Below, in pieces: positions 58,566 to 64,000 of a DNA stretch of 64,000 nucleotides. This DNA is from Microlunatus antarcticus. Lineage in GTDB: Bacteria; Actinomycetota; Actinomycetes; Propionibacteriales; Propionibacteriaceae. Below the pieces are notes generated by a model. The model made no database searches, was not told where the DNA came from, and saw only the letters and a program-made list of their open reading frames with translations. Position numbers and translations under genes: made by a program. Every line of letters begins with the position of its first letter. Position 1 is the first letter of the stretch. Location of the stretch: assembly GCF_014193425.1 (NCBI RefSeq), contig NZ_JACHZG010000001.1, positions 2,480,001 through 2,544,000 on the forward strand. The letters run 5' to 3'.

Positions 58566-59096
58566 TCAGCCCGTCTCCTCCACGGCCAGCACGCTGATCT
58601 CCACGCTGCCCGGCACGAAGCCGTGGGCGGCGACCAGCTCCCGCAGCATGCGGTGGAGCTCGATGACCGACGCGCGCGCCTGGTGGCTGGCCCGCGTCGA
58701 CACGTTGACGTCGAGGTCGACGACCCGCCCGTGCACGTCCAGCTGGATGCCGTCCAGGCTGCCGCCCTGACGCAGGCTGTGCAGCGCGCCGAGCAGCGTG
58801 GGCTCCATCCGGAGCACCCCGGGGTGGGCCACGACCAGCTGGGCGACCTGCACCCGGAGCGCCTCCGCGGGGTCCTCGAAGGTCCCCGGCGCCGGGAGGA
58901 CGCTCAGCGAGGCGGTGCCCGTCCGGCTCGTCGACCCGGCGGCGGCCTCGACGGCACCGGGTTCACCCGCCACCGGCGGCACCTCGGACAGCTCTGACAT
59001 CTCCTGCACCCTTCTCTCGACGGCCGCGGGGGACCCCGTCGGCTCCTGTTCCCGAGACACTCGTGCGCCCGCCGGGCGGTCTGGCCCCTCAGGCAT
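58566..59096 (-). CDS. Small Asp23-like protein (module A)
   Basis: A 176-residue protein. After about 90 disordered residues the C-terminal domain reads HPGVLRMEPTLLGALHSLRQ, DGIQLDVHGRVVDLDVNVST and PGSVEISVLAVE. It aligns by eye with the product of 60716-61099 and recalls the beta-alpha Asp23/Gls24 core. The ATG at 59096 overlaps the upstream stop by 8 nt; ATG at 59000 is an alternative shorter start. Third gene of module A. Confidence 0.6.
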   Translation of the reverse strand: MPEGPDRPAGARVSREQEPTGSPAAVERRVQEMSELSEVPPVAGEPGAVEAAAGSTSRTGTASLSVLPAPGTFEDPAEALRVQVAQLVVAHPGVLRMEPTLLGALHSLRQGGSLDGIQLDVHGRVVDLDVNVSTRASHQARASVIELHRMLRELVAAHGFVPGSVEISVLAVEETG

Positions 59097-59712
59097 CGTG
59101 GACGTCCTCCACCGCGACGTCGACGCCCACGACGTTGATCCCCACCTCGCGGTCCACGACCTCCATCACGGCGGCCCGGAGCTCACGCGTCAGCAGCGGG
59201 ATGGCGACGTCGCTCCGGACGCTGACCCGCAGCGTCACCCGGACGTCGGAGGGCACCCCGGACTCCGGGACCTCCTCGTCGTCCGGACCGGGCCCGTCCA
59301 CCGCCGGCGCCGCCGTCACGAGGTCGATGCTGCAGCGACGGACCTGCAGACCGCCGTGACGGTCCCCGGTCCGCCGGACGACCGCGGCGACCGCCTGCTC
59401 GCTCACGGTCAGCTCGTCGCTCACCTGGCCCGGCCGGGGCTTGCTCAGCGGCAGCCGACGGCTGCGCCGGGCCTCCGAGCGCGCGACCTCGAGGATCCGG
59501 GCGATGACCTGGGGGCCGGCCTGCAGCTGCGGGTCCTCGTCGTCGGCGGAACGCAGCGCCGCCGTCGCCCGTTCGAGCTCGTGCAGGCTGTCGCGCGCCG
59601 CGCCGCAGAACGGGCAGGTCAGCTCGTGGGGCGTGGGCGGCGCGTCGATGTTCGCCCACACCTCGTCGATGTCGCGTCCGCAGCCGAGCCGGGTCGAGCT
59701 GCTCACCGCCAT
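59089..59712 (-). CDS. Anti-sigma-like zinc motif fused to Asp23/Gls24-like domain (module A)
   Basis: A 207-residue protein. The N-terminal 40 residues hold Cys11, His29, Cys33 and Cys36 (LGCGRDIDEVW then HELTCPFC), the HxxxCxxC pattern of zinc anti-sigma factors. A charged helix links to an Asp23-type domain (LTVSEQAVAAVVRR; DVRVTLRVSV; VVDREVGINVVGVDVAVEDV). There is no membrane helix, so it would be a cytosolic anti-sigma. Its ATG overlaps the end of the ECF sigma gene by 10 nt. Regulation of that sigma is inferred from coupling and motif. Confidence 0.7.
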   Translation of the reverse strand: MAVSSSTRLGCGRDIDEVWANIDAPPTPHELTCPFCGAARDSLHELERATAALRSADDEDPQLQAGPQVIARILEVARSEARRSRRLPLSKPRPGQVSDELTVSEQAVAAVVRRTGDRHGGLQVRRCSIDLVTAAPAVDGPGPDDEEVPESGVPSDVRVTLRVSVRSDVAIPLLTRELRAAVMEVVDREVGINVVGVDVAVEDVHDA

Positions 59713-60407
59713 GAGCTCATTCCCTTCGTGAGGTTCTGGCGTGCCCGGGCGAGACGGCCCCGGACGGTGGAGACGGGCAGGTTCATCGCGTAGGCGATCT
59801 CGGGGTACGTGAGGTCGTGCAGCTCCCTGAGCACCCAGCATGCGCGCTGCTCGTCGGGCAGCCCGCGCAGGAACGTGTCCAGGCCCTCGACCTGGGCGAG
59901 GTGCTGGGCCATCGCGGCCGGGTCGGACGACGCGTCGAGGGGGAGGTCGCGCTCCAGCTCGTCCGTCTCGGTCGCGTCGGTCCGACGCCGGGAACGGGTC
60001 CGCAGCACGCTGAGGCAGCGGCGCGTGGCGAGCTGGTAGATCCACCGGTGGAACGCCTGGGCGTCGGTGAGGCTGGGGAGCTTGCGCCAGACCAGCACGA
60101 GGCAGTCCTGGACGACGTCCTCGGCCTCGCCGCGGTCGCCCAGCATGCGGTAGGCGAGCCGGAACACGGGCCCCTGGTAGCGGTGCACGATCATCTCGAA
60201 CGCCTCGAGGTCGCCCTCCTGCGCCCGGCCCACGACGGTGGCCTCGGCCATCCCGCCCGGGTACGGCACCGCGTTGGCCGGACCCTGGTGCTGCCCGCCG
60301 TCCACGCCGTCGGCGGGGTGCGCGCCGTCCGGCGACGCCGCCGGACGCTCGCGGTCCTCGATCTCCACACCCCTCCGTCCCTCGTCCGCGACCCGCGCGG
60401 TCGTCAT
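59703..60407 (-). CDS. ECF-type RNA polymerase sigma factor (module A)
   Basis: The sigma-70 region 2 is FEMIVHRYQGPVFRLAYRML, GEAEDVVQDCLVLVWRKL and FHRWIYQLATRRCLSVLR; region 4 is LPDEQRACWVLRELHDLTYPEIAYAMNLPVSTVRGRLARAR. The start is uncertain: ATG at 60407 adds a coding-like but unstructured 52-residue N-terminus; ATG at 60251 gives a standard 182-residue ECF. It is followed by its putative anti-sigma and a small Asp23-like gene. Confidence 0.88.
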   Translation of the reverse strand: MTTARVADEGRRGVEIEDRERPAASPDGAHPADGVDGGQHQGPANAVPYPGGMAEATVVGRAQEGDLEAFEMIVHRYQGPVFRLAYRMLGDRGEAEDVVQDCLVLVWRKLPSLTDAQAFHRWIYQLATRRCLSVLRTRSRRRTDATETDELERDLPLDASSDPAAMAQHLAQVEGLDTFLRGLPDEQRACWVLRELHDLTYPEIAYAMNLPVSTVRGRLARARQNLTKGMSSWR

Positions 60408-60715
60408 CCCCTGCACACCCACGGAGCAGGAACGTCCGCGGCGGCCGCCGGGTGCCCGTCGGCGCCGCCTTTCCGGCCCGCTGCCGGTCCGAGGACGCGG
60501 ATCACGTTCTCACGGAACCCGCGTCCCGGGTCGTCGAGCGGTCCCGACCGACCGTCCGGCGTCCCCCCGCCGGGGGACGTCGGCGTGCCACGTACGGGGC
60601 CGTTCTCGTACAGCGCACTTCAGGTCAGGACGCCACGTGCGGGCTCACCGTCACGCCGTCCGCGGAACTTTTTCCGCGCTCCGGTCACGCCAGGCGGTGC
60701 TCCCCCGGACCAGCC
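60408..60715. promoter_or_regulatory. Intergenic region between the two sigma modules
   Basis: About 300 bp lie between the start of module A and the end of module B, both on the minus strand. No gene is supported. It contains G+C-rich hairpin potential (CCCCCCGCCGGGGG-like at about 60564-60577) and an A/T-richer GGAACTTTTTCCGCG at about 60664-60678. A module A promoter probably lies here, but I cannot assign its boxes. Confidence 0.35.
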
Positions 60716-61099
60716 TCAGCGCTCGACGCTCAGCACGGCCACGGTGACGCTGCCGGCCCGCAGCCGGCGGGTGGCGAGCTCGTCGACCAGCGCCCGACGG
60801 ACGTCACGGGCGATCGCGGCGGCCGACCGGGTCGGGTCGGTCACCACGTCGACGTGCACGTCGACGACGTCGGCGCGTCGGTGCAGCTCGATGCCGTCGG
60901 CGGCCGAGCGGGCGCCCTTGCCGTTGAGGAGCACCGTCGAGCCGACGTGCAGGCGCCGGAGCGCGTTGCGGAGGGTCGGCTCGAGCCGGACGACGCCGCT
61001 GATGGCCTCGGCAGCGCCGGCGAGACCGTCGCGCAGCTCGTCGGTCGCCGCGCGCAGCTCGGCCGCCGTCGCCGGACCCGGCACCTCCGGGGTGCTCAC
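60716..61099 (-). CDS. Small Asp23-like protein (module B)
   Basis: A 127-residue protein: an N-terminal helix (AELRAATDELRDGLAGAAE) and then GVVRLEPTLRNALRRLH, DGIELHRRADVVDVHVDVVT and AGSVTVAVLSVE, matching the module A counterpart position by position. GTG overlaps the upstream stop (GTGA). It lacks the long disordered N-terminus of its paralogue. Confidence 0.65.
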   Translation of the reverse strand: MSTPEVPGPATAAELRAATDELRDGLAGAAEAISGVVRLEPTLRNALRRLHVGSTVLLNGKGARSAADGIELHRRADVVDVHVDVVTDPTRSAAAIARDVRRALVDELATRRLRAGSVTVAVLSVER

Positions 61100-61656
61100 A
61101 GGACGTCCTCGACGACGAGGTCCACCCGGCGGACCCGCAGCCCGGCCTCGGCGTCCACGAGGGCGGCGACACGGGTCCGCAGCTGCTCGGTGGTGGCCTG
61201 CAACGGGGTCCCGGGTGCGACCGCCAGCGCCAGGTCGACGTCCACGTCGGTGGGCCCGGTCGACCCGGGGTCACGGTCGACGAGGCGCACCCGGCAGCGG
61301 CGGGCCCGGACGCCGGGCACGGCGTCCGCGGCGGCCCAGACCAGGCTGACCACCGCCTGCTCGCTGATCGTCAGGCCGGGGTCCTCGTCCACGTCGAGCG
61401 GGAGCGCCTGACCGCGACGCACCTCGGCCCGGACCAGGCTCATGACGGAGGCCGTGAAGTCCGGCTCCGGCTGGAGCGCGGGGTCCGCGGCCTCCGCGGT
61501 CCGCAGGTCCGTGGTCGCGTCGGAGAGCCGCAGCAGCCGGGCCCGCGCCTCCAGGCAGTAGGGGCAGCCGCGCTCGTGCTCGTCCGGCGCTCCGCCGACG
61601 TGGCTCCACACGTCGTCGATGGAGCGCCCACAGCTCAGTCGCGTGTCGTCTGCCAT
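61096..61656 (-). CDS. Anti-sigma-like zinc motif fused to Asp23/Gls24-like domain (module B)
   Basis: A 186-residue protein with Cys9, His27, Cys31 and Cys34 (LSCGRSIDDVW then HERGCPYC), exactly the spacing of the module A protein. The Asp23-type part reads LTISEQAVVSLVWAAAD, VDVDLALAVAPGTPL and EAGLRVRRVDLVVEDV. It overlaps the end of the module B sigma gene by 22 nt. Two copies with identical metal-ligand spacing suggest a maintained duplication. Confidence 0.7.
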   Translation of the reverse strand: MADDTRLSCGRSIDDVWSHVGGAPDEHERGCPYCLEARARLLRLSDATTDLRTAEAADPALQPEPDFTASVMSLVRAEVRRGQALPLDVDEDPGLTISEQAVVSLVWAAADAVPGVRARRCRVRLVDRDPGSTGPTDVDVDLALAVAPGTPLQATTEQLRTRVAALVDAEAGLRVRRVDLVVEDVL

Positions 61657-62234
61657 GCGCCCATCCTCTCGGCCAGCTCGTGCCGGGCCCGCGCGATCCG
61701 ACCCCGCACGGTGCTCACGGGCAGGTCCAGGGCCGTCGCGATCTCGTCGTACGACAGCTCATCGATCTCCCGCAGGGACCAGGCCGCCCGTGGCCCCACG
61801 GGCAGCGTCTGGAGCGCGGCCGCGAGGTCCTGGAGCTGCTCGCGCTGCTCGAGGCGGGTCTCCGGCCCGGCCCCCGACGCGACCGGCTCGGCCACCGTAC
61901 CGAGGTCCAGGCTCTCCTCGGGCCGTCGGCCCCGGACGACGTCGAGGCAACGACGTGTCGTGATCTGGTAGAGCCAGCTGCGGAACGCCTCGGCGCGGTC
62001 GAGGGTCGGCAGCCGTCGCCAGGCGGTCAGGAACGCCTCCTGCACGACGTCCTCCGCGGCGCGCCGGTCCTGCGTCAGCCGCCAGGCGTGGCGGTAGAGC
62101 GGAGCCTGGTAGCGGCGGACGAGGACGGCGAAGGCCTGGTCGTCGCCGCTGACGCTGCGCCCGACCAGGCTGGCGTCGTCCCAGTCCTCGGGTGAGTCGT
62201 CAGCGTGGTCCAGAGCGAAGAGATGAGCGCTGAT
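61635..62234 (-). CDS. ECF-type sigma factor (module B) without canonical start codon
   Basis: Region 2 reads LVRRYQAPLYRHAWRLTQ, AAEDVVQEAFLTAWRRL and FRSWLYQITTRRCLDVVR; region 4 is LPVGPRAAWSLREIDELSYDEIATALDLPVSTVRGRIARAR. Regions 2 and 4 are complete only if translation begins well upstream of the first in-frame GTG (62045). Between the in-frame stop at 62247-62249 and that GTG no ATG, GTG or TTG is present in frame. The best candidate is ATC at 62232-62234, which follows GAGGAG by 6 nt and gives 199 residues; CTG at 62211-62213 is another option. Confidence 0.75.
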   Translation of the reverse strand: MSAHLFALDHADDSPEDWDDASLVGRSVSGDDQAFAVLVRRYQAPLYRHAWRLTQDRRAAEDVVQEAFLTAWRRLPTLDRAEAFRSWLYQITTRRCLDVVRGRRPEESLDLGTVAEPVASGAGPETRLEQREQLQDLAAALQTLPVGPRAAWSLREIDELSYDEIATALDLPVSTVRGRIARARHELAERMGAWQTTRD

Positions 62235-62361
62235 CGAGTGCTCCTCTCAGTCCCTCTTCAGAAAAACCGGGTCCCGAACAATCTTTGCCATTTCGCGTGA
62301 CGAATGCTCGCTGGGCCCGTCTTACGAGGTGAAGGCCCACACCACCGAACAAGGAGACACC
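62235..62361. promoter_or_regulatory. Divergent promoter region between sigma module B and the Asp23 operon
   Basis: A 127-bp gap, A/T-richer than its surroundings (CAGAAAAACCGGGTCCCGAA, then CAATCTTTGCCATTTCGCGT). It contains an ECF-like element GAAC with TGACGA about 18 nt on, facing the Asp23 operon. Ribosome sites AAGGAG (plus) and GAGAGGAG (minus) bound it. Confidence 0.4.
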
Positions 62362-62871
62362 ATGTCCCAGAGCATCATCCCCCAGACCGCCGAGGAGCGG
62401 GACGCCGCCAACGCCAAGGCCGCCGCGGACGCCAAGGCGAACGCCCCCAAGCAGCTCGACGCCCTGCACACCGAGCACGGCGACACCACCATCGCCGACA
62501 CGGTCGTCGCGAAGATCGCCGGCATGGCGGCCCGCGAGGTCCCCGGCGTGTACGCCATGGGCAACGCCGCGCGTCGTGCGATCAGCGGCATCACCAACCG
62601 CGTCAGCGGCGGCACCGGCCAGGCCAGCGTCTCCAACGGCGTGAGCGTCGAGAAGGGCGAGAGCCAGTCCACCGTCGACGTCTCCGTCGTCGTCGAGTAC
62701 GGCGCCTCGATCGTGACCGTGAGCGACCAGATCCGCGAGAACGTCATCCGCGCCGTCGAGTTCGGCACCGGCCTCGAGGTCGTGTCCGTCGACGTCAACG
62801 TGACCGACGTGCACCTGCCCGACGAGGACGACGAGTCGACCGACTCCGCCTCCAGCGCCTCGCTCCGCTGA
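62362..62871 (+). CDS. Asp23/Gls24 family envelope stress protein (first copy)
   Basis: A 169-residue protein. A charged Ala/Lys-rich N-terminus precedes the domain: ADTVVAKIAGMAAREVPGVYAMG, VSVEKGESQSTVDVSVVVEYG and VSDQIRENVIRAVEFGTGLEV plus VSVDVNVTDVHLP, a full Asp23 domain; the C-terminal tail is acidic and serine-rich. In Staphylococcus, Asp23 forms membrane-associated filaments anchored by AmaP. AAGGAG lies 7 nt before the ATG. First gene of the divergent operon. Confidence 0.92.
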   Translation: MSQSIIPQTAEERDAANAKAAADAKANAPKQLDALHTEHGDTTIADTVVAKIAGMAAREVPGVYAMGNAARRAISGITNRVSGGTGQASVSNGVSVEKGESQSTVDVSVVVEYGASIVTVSDQIRENVIRAVEFGTGLEVVSVDVNVTDVHLPDEDDESTDSASSASLR

Positions 62872-63013: not shown

Positions 63014-63196
63014 ATGTCGCGCAGCACCACCGCCCTCTTCGTCGGCCTGATCCTCGGCCTGACCGCCGCCTTCGGCACGTTCGGCGCCTTCGTCATCGTG
63101 CTCCTCTTCGGCGCGATCGGCCTCGTCGTCGGTCTCGTCCTCGAGGGCAAGCTCGACCTCGCCGCCCTGGCCGGACGGGCCACGGCCAAGCGATGA
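63014..63196 (+). CDS. Small membrane protein of the Asp23 locus (DUF2273-like)
   Basis: A 60-residue protein with two hydrophobic segments (ALFVGLILGLTAAFGTFGAF and VIVLLFGAIGLVVGLVLEGK) and a basic tail, matching the small DUF2273-type protein found in Asp23 loci. GGAAGGA precedes the ATG. Its stop overlaps the next start. Confidence 0.8.
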   Translation: MSRSTTALFVGLILGLTAAFGTFGAFVIVLLFGAIGLVVGLVLEGKLDLAALAGRATAKR

Positions 63197-63597
63197 GCGC
63201 GGTCGCCACCACCCCCGCCGAGCGGGGCGGGCGCGCCGACCCGCGCCGTCGCGGCCGGCTCGTCCTGGCCGACCGGGTCGTCGAGAAGATCGCCGGCCAG
63301 GCAGCCGCTGAGGTCGCCGCCACCGCGGGCCGCTCCGGCGGGTTCCTGGGGATCGGGTCCGACGCCGACACCACCGCCCGTCCGAAGGTCGACGTCACCC
63401 TGTCGTCCGAGTCCGCCGACCTCGCGGTCGCCGTCGGCATCGCCTACCCGGGCTCGATCCGGCGCGCGACGCAGGAGCTGCGCGACCACGTGACCGAGCG
63501 GGTGGAGACCCTGACCGGGGTCGACGTCCGCCGCGTGGACATCGACGTCACGTTCCTGGCCCTCGCCGACGGCCCCGCCAAGGGAGCCCTCCGATGA
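63193..63597 (+). CDS. Asp23/Gls24 family protein (second copy)
   Basis: A 134-residue Asp23-like protein: LVLADRVVEKIAGQAAAEVA, VDVTLSSESADLAVAVGIAYPGSI and HVTERVETLTGVDVRRVDIDVTFL. It is shorter than the first copy, with an Arg-rich N-terminus. Its ATG overlaps the membrane gene stop and its stop overlaps the next ATG, so translation is coupled. Confidence 0.9.
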   Translation: MSAVATTPAERGGRADPRRRGRLVLADRVVEKIAGQAAAEVAATAGRSGGFLGIGSDADTTARPKVDVTLSSESADLAVAVGIAYPGSIRRATQELRDHVTERVETLTGVDVRRVDIDVTFLALADGPAKGALR

Positions 63598-64000
63598 GCC
63601 GCGCCGACGGCCGTTCGCGCCGCCTGCGTCGCCGCCCGAGCCGTACGGTCCCCGCGACGATCGTCGCCGTGGTCCTGCTGGCCCTCGGCGTGCTCACCGC
63701 GATCGCCGCCGTCAGCCGCCTCGTGAACGGCAGCTGGGACACCCTGGTCACCGGGCCCGCGAGCTCTGTGGCCGGGCAGACCCTGGGCTCGGCCGCCGTG
63801 CTCGTCGCCGCGATCGTGGCCCTGGTCCTCGGCCTCGTGCTCCTCGTCGCCGGGCTCAAGCCGGGGTCGTTCCGCTCGGCCCAGCTCCGCGGCCCGTCGG
63901 GCCAGGGCATCGAGCAGACCGACTACGTCATCACCAACGGCGCGATCGCCCGCCTCGCGGCGGGTCGGGCCGACCTCGTCGACGGCGTCGACAAGGTCTC
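63594..64000 (+). CDS. DUF6286/AmaP-like membrane protein (partial)
   Basis: The 135 visible residues (the gene runs off the right edge) show a basic cytoplasmic start (RRLRRRPSRTVP), a membrane helix (ATIVAVVLLALGVLTAIAAV), an external loop with WDTLVTGP, a second helix (AVLVAAIVALVLGLVLLVAG) and the beginning of a cytosolic domain. This matches the AmaP-like membrane anchor of Asp23 operons (DUF6286 type). It is expected to recruit Asp23 proteins to the membrane. Confidence 0.75.
   Translation, partial: MSRADGRSRRLRRRPSRTVPATIVAVVLLALGVLTAIAAVSRLVNGSWDTLVTGPASSVAGQTLGSAAVLVAAIVALVLGLVLLVAGLKPGSFRSAQLRGPSGQGIEQTDYVITNGAIARLAAGRADLVDGVDKV

Follow-up and report, generated by a model that had tools for sequence, protein, structure and literature searches.

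What connects two tandem modules for extracytoplasmic function (ECF) sigma factors with the Asp23 operon that diverges from them? The question is raised by the last 6 kb of a 64,000-nucleotide stretch of the Microlunatus antarcticus genome (contig NZ_JACHZG010000001.1, positions 2,480,001 to 2,544,000 of the forward strand; referred to as the window), which hold two three-gene modules on the minus strand and a divergent operon on the plus strand. Both modules encode, in this order, an ECF sigma factor, a fusion of a CHCC zinc anti-sigma-like domain with an Asp23 domain, and a small Asp23-like protein; Asp23 and a membrane anchor are encoded together in the operon. An earlier note on this DNA had proposed that sigma could be released by binding to the membrane-anchored Asp23 network. 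A different reading is put forward here, the chances of which we consider to be even: an anti-sigma factor with an Asp23 domain would control the sigma factor that drives the Asp23 operon, in a homeostatic feedback. By comparison of sequences, the module itself is real, widespread and coherent.

The modules and their Asp23 domains

All six genes were found in the order and on the strand described in the earlier note. Module B (62234-60716, minus strand) consists of the genes for sigma factor B (61635..62234), fusion B (61096..61656) and small protein B (60716..61099), with overlaps of 22 nt (sigma/fusion) and 4 nt (fusion/small). Module A (60251-58566, minus strand) consists of the genes for sigma factor A (59703..60251), fusion A (59089..59712) and small protein A (58566..59096), with overlaps of 10 nt and 8 nt, respectively. 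Both sigma factors were recognised as ECF sigma factors by their matches to Pfam sigma regions 2 and 4 (E 3e-18 to 2e-12; Sigma70_r2 at 3e-18 and Sigma70_r4_2 at 2e-12 for sigma factor B). The fusion proteins (approximately 190-210 aa) each carry an N-terminal Cys-x17-His-x3-Cys-x2-Cys, which contains the Hx3Cx2C signature of zinc class I anti-sigma (ZAS) factors. No transmembrane (TM) segment was seen by eye in fusion B.

The Asp23 part of the fusions scored below the Pfam PF03780 cut-off (25.4 and 20.1 bits, cut-off 28), and no match to a relevant family was found for either small protein in the Pfam scan, so that assignment to Asp23 needed profile comparison. A profile of 23 fusions was aligned with one of 19 Asp23 proteins over about 100 columns (97% probability, E 1.4e-11), and a profile of 19 small proteins was likewise matched to Asp23 (93% probability, E 4.5e-7); PF03780 was matched at E up to 1 by 22 of the 23 fusions. 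By this comparison, the C-terminal part of the fusions and the small proteins clearly belong with Asp23, and the Asp23 naming that had been given to both is borne out. In the AlphaFold models, which were computed from shallow alignments (7 and 6 sequences for the fusion and the small protein; mean pLDDT 80 and 83), the C-terminal half of the fusion has the element order alpha-beta-beta-alpha-beta and its N-terminal half is helical; the small protein has a similar order with extra elements. An NCBIfam model named anti-sigma factor was matched weakly by 5 of the 23 aligned fusions (best E 4e-6); three of these matches were located (residues 26-111, 22-135 and 27-109), and all are far below the curated cut-off.

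The window fusions resemble ZAS factors such as RsrA, ChrR and RshA, which are soluble, co-encoded with an ECF sigma factor and provided with an N-terminal Hx3Cx2C (motif as in PMC7406223). They differ from these in the position of the upstream ligand (a Cys 17 residues before the His) and in the Asp23 domain at the C terminus, and also in that the zinc ligands have been lost in some relatives.

Distribution, zinc ligands and a predicted promoter

When 394 genomes of the class were sampled, a match extending over the N-terminal and the C-terminal half of the fusion was found in at least 39 (counted by hand among the matches listed, with a match start at profile position 15 or earlier; some are without zinc ligands). 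Asp23 was found at E 1e-10 or better in 157 of the 394, including all of these fusion genomes; kinship among the sampled genomes inflates such counts. Gene neighbourhoods were compared for 63 sigma-fusion modules from fetched loci, which had been picked by the fusion and not by Asp23. Left out were L056 (same contig as L039), L128 (a one-chain fusion), L103 (which failed the distance filter although a divergent Asp23 gene is present) and three sigma hits without fusion in L052, L053 and L055. An Asp23 gene lies within 3 kb of 57 of the 63 modules (in 35 cases upstream and divergent, in 17 upstream in the same orientation and in 5 downstream), and the tie between module and Asp23-AmaP operon that had been suspected in the window is thereby upheld. 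The architecture is met again next to Asp23 operons of several families and is thus not due to chance. The small gene was recognised by its profile in 34 of the 63.

Three plasmid records with a fusion match were also available, and in each the sigma gene stands directly before the fusion, which is annotated as "Asp23/Gls24 family" with no anti-sigma role. The Streptomyces and Arthrobacter modules adjoin an Asp23 operon; none is annotated near the module in the Microbacterium record, the gene table of which is known to be incomplete. Further sigma-like open reading frames (ORFs) were noticed a few kb from the module in L109, L052, L053 and L055.

The zinc ligands proved to be the less constant part of the presumed anti-sigma factor. 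In a smaller first alignment CHCC, including Hx3Cx2C, was present in 22 of 23 fusions; in the 63 modules it is present in 50 and absent from 13, namely L059, L127 and 11 modules of one family, f39 (L100, L101, L104, L105, L113, L118-L121, L124 and L126). In these f39 loci the ligands are gone, whereas the surrounding N-terminal helix and the Asp23 domain are kept, and the loss seems to have taken place in steps. A related picture was obtained with a sister subfamily of more divergent ECF sigma factors of this kind, which were found in 21 of 51 Asp23 regions without strong fusion: a partner ORF was found in 12 of these 21 loci and not recognised in the other 9, and full CHCC is absent in 11 of the 12 (L161 has it). 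The partner in L169 has Hx3Cx2C by eye, but its match is limited to the N-terminal half. As far as these alignments reach, the protein is more constant in its Asp23 domain than in its zinc site.

Related loci also hold natural fusions of the parts. In genome G219 a single protein of 326 aa (L128:5100-6080, minus strand) combines sigma regions 2 and 4 with a subsequent DUF6286/Asp23-like domain; it adjoins a co-directional Asp23 operon and has no zinc motif by eye. In six loci of family f22 (L130, L132, L134, L137, L148 and L150), which are probably from Streptomycetaceae, a gene by the Asp23 operon encodes a fusion-type Asp23 domain and an apparent small-type domain in a single protein, and no sigma gene was found in the stretch. 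All six ORFs were read, and the second domain was compared by profile for L148 (probability 93%). The one-chain and two-domain forms suggest that the separate proteins work together.

Classical GGAAC-type ECF promoters showed no useful enrichment before the sigma genes and were rejected. An open dyad search directed attention to the intergenic region shared by the sigma gene and the Asp23 operon, and when the sequences there were read, GTGAC-N16/17-CG(T/A)C was obtained, a pair of ECF-type -35 and -10 elements. Its strict form (P3), GTGACG-N15/16-CG(T/A)C(C/T)T, occurs before the first Asp23 gene (asp1) in 15 of 64 regions (mean 0.01 and maximum 1 in 100 shuffles) and in none of the 51 control Asp23 regions without strong module; 5 of the 11 f39 modules without CHCC retain it (L113, L118, L119, L120 and L126). 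The patterns P1-P5 were counted on the very regions from which they had been derived, the 51 controls not having been used to define P3; these controls include two second Asp23 operons (L135, L136) of genomes with a module elsewhere. For a looser form (Q1), which was widened after the divergent-sigma group had been viewed, the counts are 26 of the 61 regions linked to a module, 9 of the 21 with the more divergent sigma factor in their locus and 2 of the 30 that have no such sigma factor nearby (Fisher p 2e-4). Kinship is left out of account in all these promoter tests. In the window, the predicted promoter GTGACG-N15-CGTCTT lies at 62297..62323 (plus strand), 38 nt before the Asp23 start codon. 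A module sigma factor would probably read promoters of this type.

A candidate feedback circuit and its alternatives

Each module can be pictured as a switch of an ECF sigma factor and a soluble anti-sigma factor. The N-terminal helical domain of the fusion, presumably zinc-bound here, would hold the co-translated sigma factor; the C-terminal Asp23 domain would be the input and would bind Asp23-family proteins, both those of the membrane-lining Asp23/AmaP scaffold and the small Asp23-like partner. Upon loss or disturbance of the scaffold, or its being drawn to the membrane, the sigma factor would be freed and would transcribe the Asp23 operon from the GTGACG-N15/16-CGTC promoter, so that the scaffold would be restored. 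The overlapping genes and the one-chain relatives make the fusion the likely partner of the sigma factor, and that it binds its sigma factor is the step in which we have most confidence, being very probable. The Asp23 operon is the likely target in view of the promoter before the Asp23 gene, and Asp23 proteins are the natural input, since the fusion shares their domain; the scaffold is thus likely to be target as well as input. For the Asp23 domain as the sensor the balance is even, the main reason for placing it there being that this domain is more constant than the zinc site.

Several results weigh against this circuit or limit the support for it. The matches in the structure search of the fusion were dominated by the Asp23 half and cover residues 96-186. 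No Asp23 gene was found in the searched stretch for 6 of the 63 modules (two of these stretches, L057 and L125, are at contig ends), and 30 of the 51 control Asp23 regions, mostly from genomes without strong fusion, have no such sigma factor nearby. The promoter is not universal in the forms searched, the strict one being absent from 49 of the 64 regions and the loose one from 35 of the 61 module-linked ones. Autoregulation is unclear: before the sigma gene the strict form was found in 0 and the loose form in 7 of 63 regions (shuffle mean 0.8, maximum 3).

The S. aureus asp23 gene is a target of SigB. According to a 2020 paper, AmaP holds Asp23 at the membrane in this organism, Asp23 forms filaments, and a cell wall stress response is induced when Asp23 or AmaP is lost (PMC6954212). 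The window operon is similar in that Asp23 and a membrane anchor share one operon with a link to the envelope, and dissimilar in that ECF sigma and anti-sigma genes adjoin it. These data bear on the sign of the response. If the fusion were pulled off its sigma factor by the assembled membrane network, as had been proposed for the window, more network would mean more sigma activity, and with the Asp23 operon as target the switch would be self-amplifying and bistable. The same domains and the same linkage would be expected from this arrangement as from a homeostatic one, but in S. aureus it is loss of the scaffold that induces stress genes, though via other regulators (PMC6954212). For this reason we prefer the homeostatic sign, which is moderately favoured if the rest of the model holds; release by network binding is unsupported as it had been stated and is regarded as unlikely.

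Two further explanations differ in where they place the input. In anti-sigma factors of the RsrA and ChrR type the zinc site is the sensor. Were this so here, the CHCC site would act as a redox or metal switch and the Asp23 domain would merely dimerise or stabilise the protein, which would suit the presence of CHCC in both window fusions and in most modules as well as descriptions of soluble zinc anti-sigma factors as often being redox sensors (PMC7406223, PMC8999054). Such a switch is improbable in view of the 13 modules without the motif, five of those in f39 having kept the strict promoter, and of its lack in nearly all sister-subfamily partners and in the one-chain protein; it was rated lower because CHCC was found in 50 of 63 modules rather than in 22 of 23 fusions. 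Slightly less probable again is regulation by the small Asp23-like protein instead of the membrane scaffold, as a free anti-anti-sigma factor or as a co-inhibitor on the fusion. The overlap of the small gene with the fusion gene in both modules would fit this role, as would the sigma-less f22 loci in which both domain types share one ORF, but the small gene was found in only 34 of 63 modules and is therefore either dispensable or too divergent for its profile.

The pairing of ECF sigma factors with Asp23-family proteins is already known as a prediction: ECF286 and ECF292 (Casas-Pastor et al. 2021, as cited in PMC8999054) adjoin soluble Asp23-family proteins that are predicted to be anti-sigma factors, and their activation is presented in that 2022 review without experimental data. 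The modules described here share this arrangement and differ from the two groups, as these are described in PMC8999054, by the zinc domain, the third gene, the Asp23-AmaP operon and the promoter. No mention of the zinc domain, the link to the AmaP operon, the third gene, the promoter or the one-chain forms was found there, and Casas-Pastor et al. 2021 or the supplements may hold some of them. Among the papers listed in literature searches on ECF286, ECF292 and Asp23 with sigma or anti-sigma, no experimental test of such a pair was seen. The remark in the earlier note that no characterised example was known thus agrees with the review, but the pairing itself had been predicted there.

A wider form of the homeostatic reading is offered tentatively, as it appears somewhat doubtful: the anti-sigma factor would carry a copy of a membrane-lining polymer subunit as its sensor, how much Asp23 scaffold is present, or how it is assembled, would determine the activity of the sigma factor that makes it, and a pair of paralogous switches would adjust two Asp23 operons. 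If true, the cell may have a direct read-out of the condition of its envelope lining, and soluble anti-sigma control would be extended from redox to a structural, envelope-associated signal. Such a self-referential anti-sigma factor would also offer a genetic way into the question of what is sensed by Asp23 scaffolds; Asp23 is common in the class, and its molecular function was called unclear in the 2020 paper (PMC6954212). The predicted promoter makes the circuit testable.

Divergent operon, gene starts, module age and other intergenic sites

The divergent operon (plus strand) begins with asp1 (62362..62871; Pfam Asp23, E 1e-26), followed by genes for a likely membrane protein of 60 aa (63014..63196), a second Asp23 protein (63193..63597; Pfam Asp23, E 6e-12) and the AmaP-like membrane anchor with a DUF6286 tail (63594..64000; 190 aa, extending beyond the window end; DUF6286, E 2e-23). 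Two TM stretches were seen by eye in the anchor, and the NCBIfam AmaP model matches it weakly (16.3 bits, cut-off 55). Asp23 and a membrane anchor are thus encoded in one operon, as in Asp23-AmaP operons.

The start of sigma factor B is uncertain, as no ATG, GTG or TTG stands ahead of its conserved part. The codon at 62234 is ATC, and a good Shine-Dalgarno sequence (GAGAGGAG) ends 6 nt before it; at this position the relatives G003 and G017 seem, by eye, to carry GTG and ATG. The ATC may serve as a near-cognate start codon, or it may be due to a point change or to an error in sequencing. For sigma factor A an alternative in-frame start at 60422 is possible, and for small protein A an inner ATG near 59000, which would give no overlap with fusion A.

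The modules had been called duplicated, and they are indeed paralogous. A recent tandem duplication was rejected, since each sigma factor falls together with counterparts from other genomes, A with those of G003, G017 and G018 and B with those of G003 and G017. Judged by this grouping, the modules are old paralogues, which arose before those species.

Between small protein B and sigma factor A lies a second site in the window, GTGACG-N16-CGTCCT (60627..60654, minus strand), approximately 375 nt before the ATG of sigma factor A. In G003 and G017 this position holds a second Asp23 operon with an equivalent site before it; in the present genome the second Asp23 operon lies about 200 kb away (G000:C1:2328700-2332300, 2.33 Mb) and carries a site copy of its own. 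The operon seems to have moved by this distance and to have left behind the promoter copy that now precedes sigma factor A. Genome-wide, GTGACGN{15,16}CGTCYT gave 16 matches and the backwards-read pattern 3. Ten of the 16 are inside likely coding ORFs; of the six outside, three are the sites of the two Asp23 operons and the one before sigma factor A, and the other three have no downstream gene by the ORF rule.

A GGAAAAA-GTTC stretch was noticed by eye a short way ahead of the -35 element, both upstream of asp1 in G003, G017 and G002 and before sigma factor A of the window; it is recurrent in the genus and may be an UP-like element or the site of another factor. CRP-like palindromes (TGTGA-N6-TCACA) were observed near the ECF promoter in intergenic regions between sigma gene and asp1, for example in L111, L108, L102, L129 and L050. 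They occur in 12 of the 61 regions linked to a module, in 8 of the 21 with the more divergent sigma factor and in 2 of the 30 sigma-free ones (shuffle means below 0.1), and a regulator of the cAMP-receptor type may share in the control of these regions.

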